DNA of 21,036 nucleotides from a virus. Positions 6,684 through 15,612 of this stretch are shown here, one piece after another. The position numbers and the translations under genes were made by a program. Within the stretch, counting starts at the first letter, position 1. The number at the start of each line of letters is the position of its first letter. The notes below the pieces were generated by a model. That model searched no databases. It saw only the letters and a list, made by a program, of their open reading frames with translations, and was not told the origin of the DNA. The stretch is taken from IMG/VR virus record IMGVR_UViG_3300048921_000454, positions 1-21,036 of that record. One strand, 5' to 3'.

Positions 6684-7432
6684 CACGCCGCGAGCTCCGT
6701 GCGCGCACGATGCGCTGCTTCGATGCGACGGCACGACGTATCGAAGTGCCCTTCATCGATTTCGATCCCGATGAACTCGCGACCGGTCTGCACCGCGGCA
6801 ACGCCGGTCGTTCCCGATCCCATAAAGGGATCGAGCACGGTCGTGCCGCAGATCTTGAGCATTTGTTCGAGGAGAGGAACCGGCTTGCCGGCTATATGGT
6901 GCTTGTCTTTCGCGGCGAGGCCCACCCGAAATACGCCCGGCGCAACGACGCCTTCCAGCGGCATTCGTCCGTTGCTGCCCCAAAGCAAGTATTCGCACTG
7001 GTTTCGGTACCGGCCGAGCTGCGGACGAACGCCCTCCGTCTTGTCCCAGACCGCGATCCCGCGCCAGATCCAGCCACCGGACTGCAAGGCATCGCTCGTC
7101 GTCGGGAGTTGGCGCCAGTCGGTGAAGACGCCGACCACCGCGCCTTCGCGAGCAACGTTGCGGCAGGCGCCGAGCCAGAGGGCTGACCAATAGCCGAAGG
7201 ACCGCTGATCGCGGTTGTCGCCGCTGAATTCGCCATGTGGGCCATTGCGCCCATTGCCTTGGTATTTCGCGGTGGGGGCAGCAACGCGGTCACTGCGGAA
7301 GAGGCCGCCTGAACTATACGGCGGATCTGTCACGACGGCGTCTACCGTACAATCCAGCTGCCGCAGCACGTCCAGACTGTCGCCAAGGTAGAGCGTTGCG
7401 CTGCCGATCTTCTCGACGCGAAACTGGGTCAT
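6683..7432 (-). CDS. orphan DNA methyltransferase, beta class (N6-A or N4-C)
   Basis: A 249-residue S-adenosylmethionine-dependent DNA methyltransferase of the N6_N4 Mtase family. The catalytic motif IV DPPY is at residues 36-39 and precedes the SAM-binding motif I DPFMGSGTT at 201-209, the order of the beta class (CcrM, Mbo/RsrI group). HIAGKPVPLLEQML at 179-192 is the conserved helix before motif I and GIEID at 222-226 is motif II. No restriction enzyme is nearby, so it most likely modifies phage DNA to evade host restriction or mimics a host regulatory methylation; the target site cannot be read. AAAGG lies seven bases before the ATG. The slot between large terminase and gpW is unusual for a modification gene. 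Confidence 0.9.
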   Translation of the reverse strand: MTQFRVEKIGSATLYLGDSLDVLRQLDCTVDAVVTDPPYSSGGLFRSDRVAAPTAKYQGNGRNGPHGEFSGDNRDQRSFGYWSALWLGACRNVAREGAVVGVFTDWRQLPTTSDALQSGGWIWRGIAVWDKTEGVRPQLGRYRNQCEYLLWGSNGRMPLEGVVAPGVFRVGLAAKDKHHIAGKPVPLLEQMLKICGTTVLDPFMGSGTTGVAAVQTGREFIGIEIDEGHFDTSCRRIEAAHRARTELAA

Positions 7433-7442
7433 GTCTTACCTT

Positions 7443-9635
7443 TCAGGCGAGGCGGCCGCCGAAGCGGCTCGTGCTGGATCGACTTCGCTTCGCTGCCGGG
7501 GCCGGCACGATCGGCGCCGCCGGCGGGGCTGAGACTGCGGGCACGGAGGGAACATGGGTGGGGGCGGGCCGCGGCGCCGGCGTCGGCTCGCGGGCAGCGT
7601 CGGCCGCAGGTGGATGGGGCGTGACGGTCATCTGGGCGCCCACCTTTTCCGCTTCGCGGTTGAGCTTGAACCCGCGGTGCATCAGGCCGTGGAGCGCGGC
7701 GTAGGCGTAGACGCGGCAGTCGAGAGCCTCGTTGGCGCGACCGGCTGGGAGCACCCAGACGCGGAATTTCTGCCCGCCCTGTTCCTTGATCTCGATCTGC
7801 TCGGCGGTGAGCTGGGCGAAGTAGCCGGCGTCGCGATCGACGCTGAAATGCATGTACCCGTGCCCGGGGCGCTCCTTCTGCAGGTAGCCCCGGATCGTGT
7901 CCTTCGCGGCGTTCACGCCGATGATAACCGGGCGATAGGTCTTCTTCGACCGCGCGCTGGGGCGCTTGGTCGGCCAGACCGGATTGCGCTGGCCTGACCG
8001 TGCGCTCTCTCCCTTGACGCCCCAGATCGAGCGGCCGAGGCGCGCCTTCGCGAAGTCGTACACGGCGTTCGTGTGATGACCGCCGGTGTCGATACAGGCC
8101 GCGCTGATCGCAAACGGCCGACCGTCAGCGCGAAGCCACCGCCGCATCAAGAACTCGTCGAGCGCGGCCTGCGTCTTCGGGTCGTCGAATTCGCCGTCGA
8201 TCACCTCATAGGCGATCGACCAGCTTTCCTCGTCCCGCCCCCAGCCGACGATCTCGATCTCGACGCGGAAGTCCTGGACGTCGATGCCGGCGGTCAGCAT
8301 CGCGACGCCGTCGGGGATCTCGGCGGCCCATAGTTGCCGCCGCTCGAGGAGGGCGTCGGCGGTGAGCGCCTTGCCCATGTTCTTGCGATAGGTCAGCGCC
8401 AGCTGGGTATTGTAGAACGTCTGCTTGCCGTCTTCATCGACAGCGGCGAGGAATTTGGCGGCAATCTTCGGCGGGGCATCGTTTGCCCACGGGCTGAACA
8501 GCTTCGAAGCCTGAAAGCCGGCGTGCTCGTTGGGCACCGCCCAGGTCGCGCAATGGCGGCACTTCGCCCGGTAGACGCCCCACCGGTTTGACGACCACCA
8601 ATCCCACACGCGGGCGGCAGGATCGAGGCCGTTGGCCTCGTCGATCTCCCAGGCCGCCGCATAGGCGTCGAGCGGGCGCTGCAACTCACCGCAGCATTCG
8701 AAAGGCCGCGTCTGATGCCAGCGGATCGTACCGAGCGCGCGCAGCCGCTGCCCTTCCGACCAGCCGGCGGCGCAGGCCTCGCAATAGACCCGCGCCGTCT
8801 CCGGCCGGTGGGTCTTGCCGTCCTGGCCCTTCTCCCAGTGGACGTGCTTGAAGAAATCCAGGAACTGCCGGTGGCCGCAATGCGGACAGGCGGCCGAGGC
8901 GCGGCGCTGGTCGGACTGGCCGTAGCGGACCTCGATCTTGCTCTCGCCGGTGATCGTCGGCGAGCAGACCGCGACATTCAACGAATTCGATTCGAAGGTG
9001 GCCTGGCGCTCCTCGACGATATCGAGGGGGTTGCCTTCCTTCAGCGGCAGGTACTTGTCGACCTCGTCGCACATGACGAGGCGAACCGGGCGACGCGCCA
9101 GATTGTCCGGGCTGCCTGCGCCCACGATGCCGAGGAAGCCGCCGGGGAAAGCCTTGTAGTCGACGGTCTCGCCGGCGGCGCGGGACTTCGTCGAACCGAC
9201 CAGGCCGCGCAGGACCGGCGTGGCCTTGATGAAGGGTCCGATTCGTTCCTTCGAAAACTGCAGCGCGGCCGCGTCCTTCGGCTGCGTGATCAGCATTGGA
9301 CAGGGATCGAGATGGGCGTGGTAGCCCGTGAGGTTCTCGATCAGGGTGGTCTTGAGCAGCTGCGTCGCGACCATCGCCGAGATCTTGCGGACGCCGGGCT
9401 CGGTAGCGGACAGCATGGGGCCGCGGGCGATCTCGACCCGGGCGGTGCGGTATTTGCCGGAGGTGCTTCCGGCCTCCTTTGCCAGCACGCGAAAGCGGTC
9501 GGCCCACTCGGGCACGCTTATCCGCGGGGGTGGCGTCCAGCCGCGACGCGCAGCGCGCCGCAGTCGTTCAGTCTTCGGCGGTACCGCTGAAGTCGAGGTC
9601 CGGTTCGCCGAGCTCGTCGAGCTGCTGGTGGACAT
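7443..9635 (-). CDS. terminase large subunit, lambda gpA family
   Basis: A 730-residue packaging motor and nuclease (lambda gpA 641). A deviant Walker A lies at about 89-97 (VATQLLKTT), Walker B at 186-191 (RLVMCDE, acidic D190/E191) and the coupling motif follows at CSPTITGES. Two cysteine pairs, C250/C253 and C285/C288, may bind zinc, with a further CC pair at 313-314 and CRHC at 359-362. The nuclease half has LTAGIDVQ (D452) and CIDTGGHH (D516) as metal ligands. The C-terminus from about 660 is a Pro/Ala-rich tail, probably for portal contact. The ATG lies inside the small subunit gene (68-base overlap); the Shine-Dalgarno match is poor, so the exact start is less sure. Confidence 0.93.
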   Translation of the reverse strand: MSTSSSTSSANRTSTSAVPPKTERLRRAARRGWTPPPRISVPEWADRFRVLAKEAGSTSGKYRTARVEIARGPMLSATEPGVRKISAMVATQLLKTTLIENLTGYHAHLDPCPMLITQPKDAAALQFSKERIGPFIKATPVLRGLVGSTKSRAAGETVDYKAFPGGFLGIVGAGSPDNLARRPVRLVMCDEVDKYLPLKEGNPLDIVEERQATFESNSLNVAVCSPTITGESKIEVRYGQSDQRRASAACPHCGHRQFLDFFKHVHWEKGQDGKTHRPETARVYCEACAAGWSEGQRLRALGTIRWHQTRPFECCGELQRPLDAYAAAWEIDEANGLDPAARVWDWWSSNRWGVYRAKCRHCATWAVPNEHAGFQASKLFSPWANDAPPKIAAKFLAAVDEDGKQTFYNTQLALTYRKNMGKALTADALLERRQLWAAEIPDGVAMLTAGIDVQDFRVEIEIVGWGRDEESWSIAYEVIDGEFDDPKTQAALDEFLMRRWLRADGRPFAISAACIDTGGHHTNAVYDFAKARLGRSIWGVKGESARSGQRNPVWPTKRPSARSKKTYRPVIIGVNAAKDTIRGYLQKERPGHGYMHFSVDRDAGYFAQLTAEQIEIKEQGGQKFRVWVLPAGRANEALDCRVYAYAALHGLMHRGFKLNREAEKVGAQMTVTPHPPAADAAREPTPAPRPAPTHVPSVPAVSAPPAAPIVPAPAAKRSRSSTSRFGGRLA

Positions 9636-10212
9636 AGGGCTTCAGCGCCTCCGCCAGCTTCACGCCGTCGATATCGAGATCGGCGGCGAGCAGCGGGGCG
9701 AAGCGGCCAGGCCAGGCCGACCAGGCATCACGGGCGGCACGACGATCGTCGAAGATGACCCGCTCGGCCTCCTCGATCTCGACCAGCTTGCCGGCTTCCT
9801 TCTGCGCGACGAGCAGGTGCTTCAGCGCGAGGGCGTTCTCCTTGATCGCGGCCGCCTCGACCTTCGACCGGAACTGGCCGGCGAGCAGCTGCTCGATAAA
9901 GCCGCCGGCGATCTCCTCGTCGATCTCCTCGTCCGCCACGGCGGCCTTGAAATCGGTGACGACCTCGTCAACCGCGGCGGCGACTTCAGGCGCAACCTTG
10001 CGCCGGTTGCGGGTTGCGGTTGCGGGGGCCGGTTGCGCGGTTGCGGCCTCGGCCTTGAACCTGCCTGCGCCAGCGTCGCGCATGCGCTGGTCAGACGCGA
10101 CAGCATCGACGAGATCGCCGGAAAATACGAGAATACCGCGGCTTTTCCATTTCGTCGCGGCTTGGCGGGAGGCGCCGTGCGTCGCCGCGTAAGCGGTCAG
10201 CGATAGCAGCAT
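9568..10212 (-). CDS. terminase small subunit, Nu1-like
   Basis: A 214-residue DNA-recognition subunit (lambda Nu1 181). Residues 1-40 (SLTAYAATHGASRQAATKWKSRGI) look like the Nu1 winged-helix that binds the cos site, followed by an Ala/Pro linker and a long helical region (about 75-150) for self-assembly; the C-terminal part (ALKPYVHQQLDELGEPDLDF) would contact the large subunit, whose gene it overlaps. GGGAGG precedes the ATG at an ideal distance. A cos site would be expected near the small subunit gene, but I could not recognise a 10-12 base cohesive end or repeated R sites by eye. Confidence 0.82.
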   Translation of the reverse strand: MLLSLTAYAATHGASRQAATKWKSRGILVFSGDLVDAVASDQRMRDAGAGRFKAEAATAQPAPATATRNRRKVAPEVAAAVDEVVTDFKAAVADEEIDEEIAGGFIEQLLAGQFRSKVEAAAIKENALALKHLLVAQKEAGKLVEIEEAERVIFDDRRAARDAWSAWPGRFAPLLAADLDIDGVKLAEALKPYVHQQLDELGEPDLDFSGTAED

Positions 10213-10221
10213 TGCCCTCCC

Positions 10222-10503
10222 CTACCCGCTACCGGTTGTACCCCCGCAACCAACTTTTCGACCTCGTAGCTGGCCAAGCATCGAGCGCGCGCAATACCCA
10301 CATTGCGGTGAGGGCGTGGAAGGACCCATGACCGGGGGGGGTGGGGGTGAGACGGGCGGGCTGACCGCGGCGGACGAGCCGGCGAGGTCAGGGCCAAAGT
10401 GGCCGGAGGCCATCTCGATGGCCGTACCGAGGATCAGACCGAAGACGGCGCCGGCGGCGGCGATGACGAGACGGATCTGCGCTCTCGTCGCCAGCAACGC
10501 CAT
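10222..10503 (-). CDS. small single-helix membrane protein
   Basis: A 93-residue protein whose ATG is three bases after the spike-base-like gene stop. Residues 10-30 (IRLVIAAAGAVFGLILGTAI) form one transmembrane helix after a short basic N-terminus; a Ser/Pro-rich linker (PPVSPPPPPVMGP) and a Cys-containing basic tail (QCGYCARSMLGQLRGRK) follow. The linker is encoded over an eight-base homopolymer (10334-10341), beyond which codon choice loses the strong GC third-position bias of the neighbours, so the true C-terminus may lie in another frame. It could be a lysis-related or virion membrane protein; no family is recognised. Confidence 0.45.
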   Translation of the reverse strand: MALLATRAQIRLVIAAAGAVFGLILGTAIEMASGHFGPDLAGSSAAVSPPVSPPPPPVMGPSTPSPQCGYCARSMLGQLRGRKVGCGGTTGSG

Positions 10504-10506
10504 AGA

Positions 10507-10764
10507 TCAGTGGCCGAGCGCGACGATGTCCGCAGCCGTGGTACCGCTGGCGCGGACGTACTCGGGACGGATCGGTAGCAGCGTGCCGTTGGGCACGTTC
10601 TTGAGGATGACGTCGGCGGTGGAGTTGGCACCTTGGAATTTGAGGTCGCCGCCGGTGCCGACCCATACCGCGAAGGGAATGACGTCGAGCTTCGTGTCGC
10701 TGGGTGTGATCGCCCATGCCGATGCGCAGGGGGCGGCCTGGTCGGCTGTAACCGGGATGGTCAT
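10507..10764 (-). CDS. spike base protein-like virion protein
   Basis: An 85-residue protein. The sequence pattern, ITPSDTKLDVIPFAVWVGTGGDL in the first half, then VILKNVPNGTLLPIRPEYVRASGTTAADIVAL, matches my memory of a small phage protein family also seen in gene transfer agents and annotated as spike base protein (RCAP_rcc01079 family): a beta-rich protein with the signature PxGTxLPxR and GTTAxxIxAL. It probably decorates or anchors a spike on the virion. It lies between a gpZ-like protein and the membrane protein, all on one transcript. The family assignment is from recall and should be confirmed by profile search. Confidence 0.6.
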   Translation of the reverse strand: MTIPVTADQAAPCASAWAITPSDTKLDVIPFAVWVGTGGDLKFQGANSTADVILKNVPNGTLLPIRPEYVRASGTTAADIVALGH

Positions 10765-10772
10765 GGCGGTTC

Positions 10773-11465
10773 CTATCGTCTTGGCTGCAGCGCCTTGCGC
10801 ATCGCGGCGTCGAATTCGCGGGCGGCGTTGAGGGCGAGGTAGCGCTGGGCGCGGCCGCGAAAGTCGATGCGCTTCGGCGCCAGCGTCGTGTCCTCGAAGC
10901 GGATCAGCAGGCTTAGGCCGGTGCGAACCCCGTCGACCTTACCCTGCGTGTTCCCCTTGGTGCCCCGATCGCCATCGCGTCGAATGCCGCGTTTCGGCCG
11001 TTGCCAGACGCCCGAGATCTTGCCGCCCTTCCTGAAATTCACCGTGCCGACGAAGACGTCGGGCTTGCGCTTGAGCCGCGCCAGAGTGCCTTTCGTCAGG
11101 TTGCCGTACTGGTTCAGCCCGATATTCTTCGGCGCCAGCATGCCGCGCTTTTTCCCGAGCGAGCGCGGGCCACCGACGAAATACGGAGCGAGGTAGCTCT
11201 CCGGCGCCCCGGTGTCGGTGCCATCCTTGGGGTAGACGATCGCGATCGGCTTCGTCTTCGTCGCCGACTGCAGCGTCCAGGCCGAATTGGTGAAAGGTGT
11301 CGGGCTGTCGAAGGTGTCCGCCAGCAGCTCGTTCTCGACCGCCTTCACACCTTGCGCGAGGCGGGTCAGCGCGAGGGCCATGGCGAAAGGCGCCTGCTTA
11401 GCGCGGAGGTCGACGAAGGCTTTCTGGACGGGCTTGAGGTCGCCGCGGATGCTGATTGCCAGCAC
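10773..11465 (-). CDS. gpZ-like / minor tail-type phage protein
   Basis: A 230-residue basic protein starting with GTG. It begins with a helical segment (KAFVDLRAKQAPFAMALALTRLAQGVKAVENELL), then DSPTPFTNSAWTLQSATKTK, a SYLAPYFVGGPRSLGKK block, NQYGNLTKGTLARL, and ends with RFDF-like IDFRGRAQRY and a long helix. This order (PTPFT, YLxPxxxGGxR, YGNLxxG) is a recurrent phage protein I place near the lambda gpZ/gp10-like tail-completion proteins. It would be an internal or joining virion protein. Unusually it lies upstream of the terminase genes and not with the tail genes. The start has only a weak AGGA upstream, but the preceding gene ends six bases away. Confidence 0.6.
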   Translation of the reverse strand: MLAISIRGDLKPVQKAFVDLRAKQAPFAMALALTRLAQGVKAVENELLADTFDSPTPFTNSAWTLQSATKTKPIAIVYPKDGTDTGAPESYLAPYFVGGPRSLGKKRGMLAPKNIGLNQYGNLTKGTLARLKRKPDVFVGTVNFRKGGKISGVWQRPKRGIRRDGDRGTKGNTQGKVDGVRTGLSLLIRFEDTTLAPKRIDFRGRAQRYLALNAAREFDAAMRKALQPRR

Positions 11466-11471
11466 TGGCGC

Positions 11472-11651
11472 TTATCGTGTCCTGCCGCGCGCGATGAGGC
11501 GGAGATCTCGGCCCAGCACGTCCAGCTGGTCGAGCAGTTGCTCGGTCGCTTGATGGGTCCGGCGATCGTTGCCGGCGATCCGGCGCAGACGATCAAGTTC
11601 GTCGCTCGCTCTTTCGAGGAGCACGGGGAGCGGCGTCGGAGCGGTCGTCAC
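11472..11651 (-). CDS. 59-residue coiled-coil protein
   Basis: A short gene of 59 codons plus stop, reading MTTAPTPLPVLLERASDELD then RLRRIAGNDRRTHQATEQLL and a last helix DQLDVLGRDLRLIARGRTR. The GTG start overlaps the Gam stop codon (GTGA) and its TAA lies six bases before the next GTG, exactly the junction style of this operon. Leu spacing (LLERASDELDRL, LLDQLDVLGRDL) suggests a helical hairpin or coiled coil; net charge is balanced. No family is recognised; candidates are a chaperone or cofactor of the Gam-like or gpZ-like neighbour. Confidence 0.6.
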   Translation of the reverse strand: MTTAPTPLPVLLERASDELDRLRRIAGNDRRTHQATEQLLDQLDVLGRDLRLIARGRTR

Positions 11652-12211
11652 GCGCCTGCATCCTCGCGCATGCGGTCGACGAAGAAAACCTCGGTCTGCT
11701 TGACCGAGAAGCCGAGCGACCCGAGTCGCGCGGTCAGTGCGGCCTTGGCAACGTCGTCGGCGCCGGCCTCGGCCGGCAGCACGAAATCGAGCTGCGTGAG
11801 CAGCGCCGGTTTGTCGGGCGAGTGCTTCACCCGCACGAAATCGGCGAGGGTCGCGGCCAGCAGCGTGGCGGCGGCCGCCTCGTCATTGCCGTGCGCGAAT
11901 TCCACCTTGGGAGGATTGATGCGGTAGCCGATATGGCACCCGCCAAGCTCGATCGACTTGCGCTTGCCGTCGGTCAGCGCCTCGAAATTGGCCGCGAACC
12001 ACGGCTTGAGCTGCTTGGCGATGTCCTTCAGCTCGGCGTCGATCGGCACCAGCAGCGCATCGGCGGCGGCGTTGATCTTCTGCAGCTCGGCATCGCGATC
12101 GGCGATGATCTTCTCGGCCTCGCGCGCCTGGGCGGCGTAGCGATCGGCGAGGACGAGCGCATGCTCTTTCGTCTGCGGCGCGCGCTGGGCGGCCGACCGG
12201 GTTCGGGCCAT
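11648..12211 (-). CDS. gam: Mu Gam-like host-nuclease inhibitor
   Basis: A 187-residue protein of the Mu Gam family, which binds double-stranded DNA ends like a Ku homologue and shields linear DNA from RecBCD/AddAB-type exonucleases. Residues about 18-66 form the long antiparallel helix (ALVLADRYAAQAREAEKII and on), the core KSIELGGCHIGYRINPP at 85-101 is the beta segment of the DNA-binding ring, and the C-terminal SLGFSVKQTEVFFVDRM is the usual closing motif. The ATG at 12211 has AGGA five bases upstream. It is the first gene after the late-type promoter and terminator at 12280-12366, so it probably heads the packaging operon; in Mu this gene is early. Confidence 0.85.
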   Translation of the reverse strand: MARTRSAAQRAPQTKEHALVLADRYAAQAREAEKIIADRDAELQKINAAADALLVPIDAELKDIAKQLKPWFAANFEALTDGKRKSIELGGCHIGYRINPPKVEFAHGNDEAAAATLLAATLADFVRVKHSPDKPALLTQLDFVLPAEAGADDVAKAALTARLGSLGFSVKQTEVFFVDRMREDAGA

Positions 12212-12281
12212 GGGGATCCTGCGGAGAGGCTCGACGCACGGGATCGCCGCGATGGCGAGAGGCGGAGCTGGCTGGAATGAA

Positions 12282-12308
12282 AAAGCCCGCCGGGGGGAGG
12301 CGGGCTTT
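12282..12308 (-). terminator. promoter-proximal intrinsic terminator
   Basis: AAAGCCCGCC and GGCGGGCTTT form a perfect 10-pair stem with a seven-base loop. On the minus strand the stem ends in a TTTTT run (12284-12280), the mark of a Rho-independent terminator; in the plus direction only TTT follows. It stands between the minus-strand promoter (12338-12366) and the Gam start, so transcripts should stop after about 50 bases unless antiterminated. Confidence 0.75.
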
Positions 12309-12337
12309 AGCGGTCGCAATTCGACACAATGGCAATT

Positions 12338-12366
12338 TGAATAGGGAAAATGCCGGTCCCAGTCAA
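12338..12366 (-). promoter_or_regulatory. sigma70-type promoter for the Gam-packaging operon
   Basis: On the minus strand TTGACT (12366-12361) and TATTCA (12343-12338) are separated by exactly 17 bases, a near-consensus promoter. Predicted start is about 12330, followed by the terminator at +22 to +49 and the Gam gene at +120. The only other minus-strand control signals seen in the operon are hairpins, so this may drive all head genes. Confidence 0.7.
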
Positions 12367-12445: not shown

Positions 12446-12504
12446 AAATCCATCAGCCGCGGCTGATCGGGCGCCCCGCCGGACGGATGGGCAGGAGATT
12501 TGAA

Positions 12505-12873
12505 ATGCGGACCTACATCCAACTCGCTCAGACGGTCGCTGGCGAAATCGGCCATAACGGCTGGATGATGACCCTGAACTGGAGCCAAGCGCAGCAGGAC
12601 GCCCGCGGCAACTTCAACGTTCCCGTCGTCCACCGGCTCGATCGCGTCACCTCCTATATCGGTGACGAGCGAGGCATCCTTTTAGCGCCATTCGGCGGCG
12701 CCGCTATCGATGGTCTCGACTTCGCAACCGTCGCGGAGATCGAGGCGCGCGGCAACGCTCATCGCCGCGCCTGCGATGCCGCGCTGGGCTACGATCCCTC
12801 GAAGGTCGTGGTTCGAGGCACCGGCTTCGGCCCCGGAGAGGCCATTGACCGTGCCGAATGGACGTGGGGCTGA
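12505..12873 (+). CDS. hypothetical protein, first gene of plus-strand cassette
   Basis: A 122-residue soluble protein starting MRTYIQLAQTVAGEIGHNGW; the ATG is fixed by AGGAG seven bases before it. Visible features are an aromatic N-terminal region (WMMTLNWSQAQ), a VPVVHRLDRVTSYIGDERG strand-turn stretch and a helical segment VAEIEARGNAHRRACDAAL, then GTGFGPGEAIDRAEWTWG. No enzymatic or DNA-binding motif is recognised. It has its own promoter, is followed by two coupled genes, and runs opposite to both flanking phage blocks, which suggests an accessory (moron-type) gene expressed from the prophage. Confidence 0.75.
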   Translation: MRTYIQLAQTVAGEIGHNGWMMTLNWSQAQQDARGNFNVPVVHRLDRVTSYIGDERGILLAPFGGAAIDGLDFATVAEIEARGNAHRRACDAALGYDPSKVVVRGTGFGPGEAIDRAEWTWG

Positions 12874-12901
12874 TGGACATCTCATCGCGCAGGTCGGTGC
12901 T

Positions 12902-13414
12902 TTGACCTACATCACGCAGATCGTGCTCAACGATGGTCGTCGCTATCGTATCGACGCAGCGGCGATCCCCACCCCTGTCCTCGCAGCCACGCGAGAGATC
13001 TTGCCCGTCGCACTCGAGCATGGGCGGGCACCCATGTCTGCCCTCCATCCGGAGTTGTCCCTCCACGCTGAAAAGCGCGGGCCGACGCTCCTCGCCACCG
13101 TTCACGGACCGGTTCGCGCACCTTTCGATCTCGTCGCTCAAGCGCCCATGATGCCGCTGATCAGCATCGGCGTTGCACCAAAGTCGCGCGGCGCGAGTGA
13201 CCTGTGGCGGGCGCTGGTCAATGTCACCGTCACCCTTGATGACCACGGCAATCCGGTCCCGATCGCGCTGGACGCTCCCGAAATCGCGGACGGCCCGCCC
13301 GGGGCGCCGTGGCTCGGCGTCGCCGTCCATCTCGGCTTCGGCGTGTATCCCGAGACGCACGCCTGGATGGCGCGGTTCGAACAGGCGATTGCGGTGCTAT
13401 GGGCAGGGCGATGA
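12902..13414 (+). CDS. hypothetical protein, second gene of plus-strand cassette
   Basis: A 170-residue protein of unknown family. The frame is open well upstream inside the previous gene, but the best start is the TTG at 12902 (MTYITQIVLNDGRRYRIDAA), which has AGG eight bases upstream and overlaps the stop of a ten-residue mini-ORF (12873-12905). Beta-rich segments dominate (ITQIVLNDGRRYRI, WRALVNVTVTLDDHGNPVPI) and a central GPVRAPFDLVAQAPMMPLIS stretch is hydrophobic. The C-terminus WLGVAVHLGFGVYPETHAWM ends in a helix. Its stop overlaps the RHH gene ATG (ATGA). The start is uncertain: an ATG at 13034 would give a shorter form. Confidence 0.65.
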   Translation: MTYITQIVLNDGRRYRIDAAAIPTPVLAATREILPVALEHGRAPMSALHPELSLHAEKRGPTLLATVHGPVRAPFDLVAQAPMMPLISIGVAPKSRGASDLWRALVNVTVTLDDHGNPVPIALDAPEIADGPPGAPWLGVAVHLGFGVYPETHAWMARFEQAIAVLWAGR

Positions 13415-13575
13415 CACTGAAGCGCTCACCTGGTCGACCTCTCAAGTCCAGGGACGAAAAGAGCGTTCGGATCAACATTACGCTGTCCCCCGCGGCGATC
13501 GCCGTGCTCGATGCGAGTGAAGAGCCGCGATCGACACTGATCGAGCGCCTGATCATGGCGCACGCCCCAGCCTGA
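13411..13575 (+). CDS. small ribbon-helix-helix-like protein
   Basis: A 54-residue basic protein with ATGA overlap to the previous gene. KSVRINITLSPAAIAVLDAS followed by EEPRSTLIERLIMAHA fits the CopG/Arc ribbon-helix-helix layout: a strand (RINITL), helix one (AAIAVLDAS) and a turn with R-S-x-LIERL for helix two. The N-terminus KRSPGRPLKSRDEK is a basic arm with an AT-hook-like GRP. It probably binds DNA as a dimer and may autoregulate the cassette in the manner of an antitoxin; whether the upstream genes encode a toxin cannot be told. Confidence 0.7.
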   Translation: MTLKRSPGRPLKSRDEKSVRINITLSPAAIAVLDASEEPRSTLIERLIMAHAPA

Positions 13576-13587
13576 TTGCGATCAGGC
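13570..13587. repeat. inverted repeat spanning convergent stop codons
   Basis: GCCTGAT-TGCG-ATCAGGC is a perfect seven-pair hairpin. The TGA of the plus-strand RHH gene lies in the left arm and the TGA of the minus-strand 354-residue gene in the right arm, six bases apart. There is no T run, so it may be a weak bidirectional terminator. Confidence 0.5.
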
Positions 13588-14646
13588 AGCTTGCTCGCCG
13601 AGCAGCAGCCCCCAGTTCCATTTCTCCCGGATCTCGATCGCGAGGCCGTCGAACTCGGCGCCGGCGGCGGCGAGATCCTCGCCCATTTCGCGGCCGAGCG
13701 CCCGGAGCGTCATCGGCGCGATGAACAGGTGGGTCGGGATGATGGCGCCCTCGCGCGCACGCGCGATCGCGGCGCGGAGTTGCGGGACGAGCAGCTCGGC
13801 GGCGGCCGTGGGCCGGGCTTCCGGAGCCTTCGGCGCACTGGGCCGCGCCGGCACCGCCAGCTCGGGCACGTTCAGCAGCGGGGCGATGCGGCCGTAGAGC
13901 AGGTTGGCGCAGAGCTTCACCGCGCTGCGAACCTTGCTCTCCCCCTGGCTGCGCTTAGCATCGAAGGCGGCGGCGGCGACGCTCGCCAGCGTCTCGTTCC
14001 GGCAGACGACGGCCTCGAAGATCCCGCGGTACTGCGCCGGCACATGTTCGCATGCCATTCGATAATCCTCGCGCGCATGAGCTTGCGCCGCATGGCGGGC
14101 GAGGAGATCCATCGCGCCGAAGCCGCCGCCGCTGCGCCCCTCGTAATTGGCGGTGCAGCCGATCGTATCGAAAGCAAGCGCGTGGACGCCGGCATACCAT
14201 TCGCAGGCGGCCGCCTCGTGCGCCTCGAGCACGCCGGAGCGCTGCAGGACCTCGACACGGGTCAGCTTGCGCACGGTCTCCGCGATCGGCGTGGCCTGCC
14301 CGGGCAGCCGCGGTACCGCGACGACGTCGAGGATGGCAGGATCGCGCTGGATCTCCGGCACGCCGGCGACGGCCGCGGCCTGCTCGAGGCGGGCTGCCTT
14401 AGGGTTGGCGCGCCGGCGCGCCTGGGCTCGGCCCCGATCGGCCTTCTCCTGCGTGATCCGCGTCCGCCGCTCGGCCGACGTCTCCTTGATCCATCCAGCC
14501 GTCGACGCTGCCGTCCGCGACGCCTTCCGAGCGGCCTCGGCCTCGCGCCGATCGGCGGCAATCTGCCGCTCCGCCTGTATCGCCGCCGCACGCAGCGCCT
14601 TGTCCGCGGCGCGCGTGGCGCGCGCCTCCTCGCTCAACCTGACCAT
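13582..14646 (-). CDS. 354-residue phage protein, DUF6456-like, possible late regulator
   Basis: GGAGG lies six bases before the ATG. Residues 1-90 are Ala/Arg/Glu-rich and helical, probably a coiled coil. The middle (about 130-265) has RVEVLQRSGVLEAHEAAACEWYAG, then YEGRSGGGFGAMDLLARHAAQAH, YRGIFEAVVCRNETLASVAAA and VRSAVKLCANLLYGRI. This order (L-x-x-G-x-L...A-x-x-W/Y, a variable loop, then a helix-turn-helix-like cysteine/ASVAAAAF stretch and a last helix) resembles DUF6456-type domains of alphaproteobacteria and their phages. The C-terminal 90 residues carry LVPQLRAAIARAREG and EIREKWNWGLLLGE. Position at the end of the repressor-side block, behind an SOS box and next to the late promoter, invites a Q-like role, which is inference only. 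Confidence 0.6.
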   Translation of the reverse strand: MVRLSEEARATRAADKALRAAAIQAERQIAADRREAEAARKASRTAASTAGWIKETSAERRTRITQEKADRGRAQARRRANPKAARLEQAAAVAGVPEIQRDPAILDVVAVPRLPGQATPIAETVRKLTRVEVLQRSGVLEAHEAAACEWYAGVHALAFDTIGCTANYEGRSGGGFGAMDLLARHAAQAHAREDYRMACEHVPAQYRGIFEAVVCRNETLASVAAAAFDAKRSQGESKVRSAVKLCANLLYGRIAPLLNVPELAVPARPSAPKAPEARPTAAAELLVPQLRAAIARAREGAIIPTHLFIAPMTLRALGREMGEDLAAAGAEFDGLAIEIREKWNWGLLLGEQAA

Positions 14647-15179: not shown

Positions 15180-15530
15180 CTACGCGTGTCCGCGGATCGG
15201 TACGACGTTGCCCTGGCTGATCACGGTCCAGCCACGGCGCTGCAGGACCTCCAGGACCTCGGTGTCGGACAGCTCGCCGGTACGGTCCGGCAGTCGGATC
15301 GATCGCGCCCGGCCCGGCGTCCACAGGATATCGCCGCGCCGGTAGAGCTCGCGCACGATCGTGCTGGCGCGCTGGGGCGTAAGGTCGAAACTGGCGCCGA
15401 TCTCTCTCAGGCTGGGCGATTGGCCGTAATCGCGAAAATAGCGGCGCACGAATTCGAGGACGAGTACGCGCAGCGACGACGACGTCGAAGAAAGTCGCAG
15501 CTCCCGCTGCCTGAAACTGCCGCCCATCAT
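15180..15530 (-). CDS. LexA-type winged-helix regulator lacking the peptidase domain
   Basis: A 116-residue DNA-binding protein. Residues about 21-81 match the LexA N-terminal winged helix: VLEFVRRYFRDYGQSPSLRE then IGASFDLTPQRASTIVRELY and RRGDILWTPGRARSIRL, including the PSxREI helix and the wing. The remaining 35 residues (LSDTEVLEVLQRRGWTVI) are too short for the S24 autopeptidase domain, so it cannot self-cleave. The ATG at 15530 has GGAGG at seven bases, choosing it over an upstream start. Being in one operon with the CI-like repressor and 23 bases upstream of the SOS box, it may bind that or related sites. Confidence 0.8.
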   Translation of the reverse strand: MMGGSFRQRELRLSSTSSSLRVLVLEFVRRYFRDYGQSPSLREIGASFDLTPQRASTIVRELYRRGDILWTPGRARSIRLPDRTGELSDTEVLEVLQRRGWTVISQGNVVPIRGHA

Positions 15531-15612
15531 GCGCCCGCCTCCGTGCGGAACGTAGCGCAAACGCCGGTGGGGGCAAAGCGTGCCGGTTGTGCGGTCAGTG
15601 GTTTAGCTTCGG

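Follow-up and report, generated by a model that had tools for sequence, protein, structure and literature searches.

A candidate Q-type late promoter-terminator switch and its putative GafZ-related antiterminator in phages of sphingomonads

At the head of the packaging operon in the viral DNA studied here, a predicted promoter is followed almost at once by a hairpin resembling an intrinsic terminator. How are the genes beyond the hairpin transcribed, and which protein could allow RNA polymerase to pass it? The window, i.e. the whole stretch of DNA analysed, is an entire IMG/VR virus record, 21,036 bases in length, and is probably a fragment. Its close relatives come from Sphingomonas, Novosphingobium and other Sphingomonadaceae, as prophages and phage contigs. 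Fold, homology and synteny point, with a probability that we put at roughly three in four, to a late promoter/terminator switch of the Q type, whose antiterminators would form an undescribed phage family related to GafZ and represented in the window by the protein p354.

Gene order around the promoter and hairpin

The minus strand of the window carries, in this order, a repressor-like gene, a LexA-like HTH gene, p354, the promoter and hairpin, gam, a tail protein gene, the small and large terminase genes, and head genes. The main features are as follows.

16447-16016, minus strand: repressor-like gene, first in the minus-strand order
15180-15560, minus strand: LexA-like winged-HTH protein (PF01726, 4.7e-8), upstream of p354
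13582-14646, minus strand: p354, candidate antiterminator, with a Q21-like core at residues about 138-257
12505-13575, plus strand: three-ORF antisense cassette between p354 and its site
11648-12211, minus strand: gam (Mu Gam-like; PF07352, 6e-18; phrog_491, 1.6e-20), first gene past the terminator
7443-11651, minus strand: start of the operon behind gam, with orf59, a minor tail protein, a tail-fibre-like gene and small ORFs, and terminase small and large subunits

Head genes run on from the terminase to the left end of the window, and presumably include those for portal, protease and capsid, as recognised from the ORFs. The LexA-like HTH gene upstream of the regulator is kept in nearly all relatives, in the same slot. 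A DNA search of annotated phages gave no match, and neither did a search of Rfam. When gam alone was used as a query for viral sequences, no relatives were obtained; relatives were reached through Gam with a two-member alignment as the query. In one of the related loci (L059:4623-5405), gam and the tail gene are parted by an HTH protein in reverse orientation and a toxin weakly resembling HigB, which have a terminator of their own and interrupt the operon.

Promoter and leader

The first-pass annotation had described a near-consensus promoter followed by a hairpin with a TTTTT tail. Both are present on the minus strand, exactly where it had placed them, together with three further short motifs:

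12361-12366, minus strand: -35 sequence TTGACT of the putative late promoter
12351-12355, minus strand: CGGCA in the spacer, candidate antiterminator-binding element (QBE/ZBE-like)
12338-12343, minus strand: -10 sequence TATTCA, with no T at -7
12326-12331, minus strand: CATTGT at about -1 to +5, candidate pause sequence resembling a -10
12315-12319, minus strand: TTGCG, candidate pause site at about +12 to +16
12280-12308, minus strand: putative intrinsic terminator (tR'-like) with a 10-bp stem and a U5 tract, from about +23

The promoter elements and their 17-nt spacing (TTGACT-N17-TATTCA, 12366-12338) are thus in place, but the term near-consensus was an overstatement, the agreement being 8/12 (5/6 in the -35 and 3/6 in the -10, which lacks T(-7)). 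A -10 of this kind is weak by the E. coli rule and usual in Alphaproteobacteria: according to transcription start site data, T(-7) is absent from most alphaproteobacterial sigma70 promoters, and from more than 80% of those in Novosphingobium (PMC8407463). A generic scanner based on E. coli-type rules reports neither the promoter nor the hairpin in the window; the hairpin was probably missed because part of its T run pairs within the stem. Transcription is predicted from the promoter elements to start near 12330.

The hairpin is built of the stem arms AAAGCCCGCC (12308-12299) and GGCGGGCTTT (12291-12282), separated by a 7-nt loop, with the U5 tract at 12284-12280. With a folding energy of -22.4 kcal/mol (z = -4.0), the 56-nt leader is matched by none of 200 dinucleotide shuffles. 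The Shine-Dalgarno sequence AGGA (12220-12217) and the ATG (12211-12209) of gam follow past the hairpin. Attenuation by a leader peptide was considered and ruled out, as only about 20 nt lie between the start and the hairpin.

The candidate binding element and pause sites were read by eye from few sequences. CGGCA is located at about -24 to -20, where phage 21 has subsite 1 of its QBE (at -21; PMC6606751). The register of CATTGT matches that of CACGAT, found at -1 to +5 in the AlpA-controlled alpB promoter (PMC9371919); the motif is identical in the related locus L179 and less clear across all homologues. TTGCG is common to the window, L179 and nearly all of the diverged modules described below, in a tally that leaves out loci from the contig scan since these were picked by TGCG. 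Its position can be compared with +14, where polymerase engaged by 21Q arrests. Across TTGCG, the segment GUCG-AAUUG-CGAC (12311-12326) can fold as a small RNA hairpin, as it also can in L179, and many diverged modules have CGC/GCG pairs at this place.

The module at p354 homologues

Seven viral loci with relatives of p354 were found. In L178 (one and the same phage as L082), L179, L181, L182, L183 and L184, TTGAC overlaps the stop codon of the p354 homologue or comes after it, and is succeeded by CGGCA or CGACA, a -10 beginning with TA or CA, and a hairpin. Wherever the module directly follows such a homologue (L178, L179, L181/L182, L183, L184), its TTGAC is no more than about 10 nt from the stop codon, and CGGCA (CGACA in L184) occurs between the -35 and the -10 in every module of the p354 type.

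In addition, three related loci (L178, L179 and L184; about 10-11 kb each) were scanned on both strands, position by position, with the 58-nt module of the window. In each of them, the single best match falls precisely where the p354 homologue has its stop codon (39/58, 37/58 and 35/58; runners-up 31, 29 and 28). The module therefore belongs with p354, although the two are 1.2 kb apart in the window. It is conservation, not score, that rules out a chance origin of the promoter-hairpin module, which is a family trait of sphingomonad phages. No module could be recognised at the homologues L180, L097, L100 and L205-L210, and that of L204 is degenerate.

Diverged relatives with a second regulator subtype

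The first relatives were found through terminase and Gam, i.e. independently of the promoter-hairpin element. These loci contain a GC-rich hairpin after the gene in the p354 slot and before the next genes on the same strand, and the distance from the hairpin to the next Shine-Dalgarno sequence is often just 10-30 nt (e.g. L082, L108, L110). This is too close to accommodate any promoter behind the hairpin; the operon would therefore be reached by read-through, and termination would be conditional. Most such loci carry another subtype of regulator (p233 of L059, p268 of L002), with a site of roughly ACAAAAnnGnCCCTGCCnAAAnGGCCACGnAAnGGCCAAATCGACCCCGCGACAATTGCGTCC ahead of the hairpin.

With the core of this diverged site as the query, a scan of 2.9 million viral contigs revealed 62 loci, about 45 of which have a relative of the p233/p268-type regulator upstream of the site. 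An automatic search disclosed a hairpin of -15 kcal/mol or lower with a T-rich tail in 41/51 regulator loci, compared with 5.6% of shuffles; two of the misses, the window itself and L108, are real hairpins for which the script used a wrong anchor. The subtype of the site tracks that of the regulator, TTGAC..CGGCA occurring with the p354 type and CGACCCCGCG with the p233/p268 type. Sites of the p233 type have no clear -35. Among newly sampled genomes, the five top-scoring p233-type loci (L199-L203) contain both site and hairpin, three of them apparently repeating phage contigs already in the set, while of the weaker loci L204 is degenerate and L205-L210 are without the consensus.

In a Sphingomonas vulcanisoli prophage (L077:5941-6516), an unrelated-looking frame of 191 amino acids occupies the regulator slot, with a hairpin at 6803 and a different site. 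This small protein possibly represents a third specificity.

Insertions between regulator and site

The antisense cassette is absent from L082, in which the p354 homologue abuts its site, and p354 now lies 1.2 kb from its own site because the cassette was inserted between them. GC3 of the cassette is 0.72-0.76, as opposed to 0.83-0.87 in the minus-strand core genes. Antisense ORFs are located in the same spot, the gap between regulator and site, in L084, L112 and L151. Insertions were observed between regulator and site, and not between site and hairpin. As they respect the unit of site and hairpin, we argue that the promoter lies within the module and that the regulator would act in trans.

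The three ORFs of the cassette gave no family match, the last one looking like a ribbon-helix-helix protein, and the ORF at 12511-12873 has no relatives in plasmids or in 200 genomes of the family. A perfect palindrome, ATCAGCCGCGGCTGAT, is found ahead of the cassette at 12452-12467. The gap appears as a hot spot for antisense cassettes (L084:4230-6132, L151:7928-9647, L112:5480-6020), and those of L084 and L151 share related genes, for a protein beginning MTYLNHLTLNTG and for a small HTH protein.

The candidate regulator p354

The first-pass annotation had recognised no known Q family protein nearby and proposed that the antiterminator may be new. The former agrees with Pfam and PHROGs, in which neither p354 nor any member of families A4 (that of p354) and A5 matched a Q family; the latter holds as far as sequence can tell, with p354, encoded upstream, as the candidate. 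Leading members of the p354 and p233/p268 types had no significant match to any Pfam or PHROGs family, and protein searches of annotated phages with p354 and with the p268-type protein gave no match.

AlphaFold models were built from alignments of proteins from the loci (pLDDT 77.8 for p354 and 79.5 for p233). In a comparison of the p354 model with PDB chains by VIA-align 2, phage 21 Q occupies all of ranks 1-5, with Z of 7.7-6.8, values below 8 and between helical proteins. The alignments have an rmsd of 4-5.6 over 95-104 residues, with almost the full length of Q21 placed on model residues 139-256. AlpA (7xyb) follows at Z 5.5, and the other rows for the core region are mostly sigma region 4. 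The independently built p233 model has Q21 at ranks 1, 2 and 4 (Z 7.5 and 6.8 for ranks 1-2, likewise below 8). Foldseek alone found nothing significant.

Profile comparison by hhalign of the p354 family with DUF6456 proteins of alphaproteobacterial genomes gave P 2e-5 and a probability of 77% over 116 columns. The match covers the Q21-like core, and unrelated controls gave P 0.18 and 0.48. The A5 family compared with DUF6456 in the same way gave a weaker P of 0.038. Single members of both subtypes match PF20057 below its gathering cut-off of 26.3 bits (L116 with 19.9 bits, L180 with 13.9 bits), and p354 itself does not match it. Because hhalign between the p354 and p233 families gives a P of only 0.07, kinship of the two rests on the shared slot, the order of helices and the links to DUF6456.

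The C-terminal domain of p354 (residues about 280-354; window 13582-13810) matches pieces of HK97-type capsid and encapsulin proteins (8fqk at Z 6.4, 9bje at 5.9). This capsid-like domain is present in most p354 homologues, an odd fusion for an antiterminator.

Proposed switch and alternative readings

A pR'/tR' layout of the lambda type, its leader compact like that of phage 21, as suggested at first pass, is supported by a module that is conserved, adjoins one gene family and places the hairpin directly before the operon. The mechanism proposed here is modelled on 21Q and AlpA (PMC6606751, PMC9371919). The sigma70 promoter at 12366-12338, constitutive or weakly regulated, would produce an RNA of about 50 nt that normally ends at the hairpin (12308-12280), so that transcription without p354 would stop at about +50. 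After induction, p354 would build up and bind a DNA element within the promoter, probably CGGCA, acting in trans on a site 1.2 kb off. Polymerase may pause near +15, aided by CATTGT and TTGCG, and promoter-bound p354 could then load onto it. The modified polymerase would resist the hairpin and later terminators, and gam, terminase and head genes would be transcribed as one unit.

The main alternative, which we consider unlikely, is that p354 is an activator with a sigma-region-4-like DNA-binding domain, as proposed for GafA, and that the hairpin is a leaky terminator or insulator setting the basal level. Q21 itself has a sigma-region-4-like HTH, and the match of p354 to Q21 could therefore reflect an activator; in the structure lists of both p354 and p233, chains of sigma region 4 come after Q21. 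Furthermore, GafA works at promoters via the omega subunit (PMC9638019), and p233-type promoters without a clear -35 would suit activation. An activator, however, gives no reason for a strong hairpin kept right before the first gene in most relatives, and the match extends beyond the HTH to nearly the entire Q21 chain.

It is very improbable that the conserved stretch before the hairpin acts as RNA, in the manner of nut or put sites, in a transcript from an upstream promoter. Such antitermination would account for the conservation of the transcribed TTGCG, for the 4-bp GUCG/CGAC hairpin that can form before the terminator and for the basic N-terminal tails of the regulators, but at p354-type loci the conserved part takes in the -35, spacer and -10. 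Moreover, antisense genes part the site from upstream sense genes in the window and in L084, L112 and L151, and a promoter in the module is therefore the simpler source of the transcript. Scarcely credible, despite the low promoter score, is a spurious promoter with a hairpin that merely ends some transcript, given a unit conserved at the regulator gene and a hairpin directly before the first gene of the operon; conservation of the promoter part and this position of the hairpin make both this and the RNA-based reading less likely.

Relation to known antiterminators

The proposed antitermination switch resembles that of phage 21 (Q, PR'21 and tR'21; also lambda Q and 82 Q) in its promoter, its candidate element between the -35 and the -10, and a short terminator leader before the late operon. 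As in phage 21, the candidate regulator is encoded upstream, and the core of p354 ranks Q21 first by predicted fold. Unlike phage 21 Q, p354 has no detectable sequence similarity to the Q families of Pfam and PHROGs, is about twice as long and carries an extra C-terminal domain. The candidate site is CGGCA, in contrast to the repeated TGAGCA of phage 21, and the leader here leads into gam and packaging genes. In L178, L179 and L181-L184 the candidate regulator directly adjoins its target promoter, whereas in the window the cassette lies in between.

Experiments support antitermination by GafZ, which is homologous to the C-terminal part of GafA and has a binding element between the -35 and the -10; a resemblance in structure to known antiterminators had not been reported for it (PMC11150451). 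Relatives of GafA are annotated as DUF6456 proteins (PMC9638019). By profile comparison, p354 shares a homologous core with GafZ and the C-terminal domain of GafA (DUF6456, PF20057), which belong to alphaproteobacterial gene transfer agents (GTAs), although its family stays below the Pfam cut-off for DUF6456. Similarities extend to a phage-type packaging and head cluster as the target and to a candidate element between the -35 and the -10. The partner of GafZ encoded upstream is the HTH protein GafY; by analogy of position, the LexA-like protein could be its counterpart here. GafZ of Caulobacter needs GafY and IHF, and its terminator, formed by three 150-bp repeats, is located behind the first gene, whereas the phage module has a single hairpin at about +23.

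AlpA of Pseudomonas aeruginosa is likewise associated with an element between the -35 and the -10, a -10-like sequence at -1 to +5 and a downstream intrinsic terminator. It differs in that no sequence similarity was found and in controlling a chromosomal cell-lysis operon.

In a large group of sphingomonad phages, the late genes are probably governed by this switch, with its regulator named and its site defined here in two subtypes. Late control in phages is thereby linked to GafZ, the antiterminator of GTAs, and to the Q21 fold. We hold the chances to be evenly balanced that a single large and fast-diverging family of alphaproteobacterial antiterminators with the Q21 fold unites p354, the p233/p268 family and GafZ, each subtype having its own promoter-embedded site and leader terminator. 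The GTA antiterminator would then have been inherited from such phages, and GafZ would share the nozzle mechanism of the Q21 type. The small and compact phage modules make polymerase modification of the GafZ type testable.
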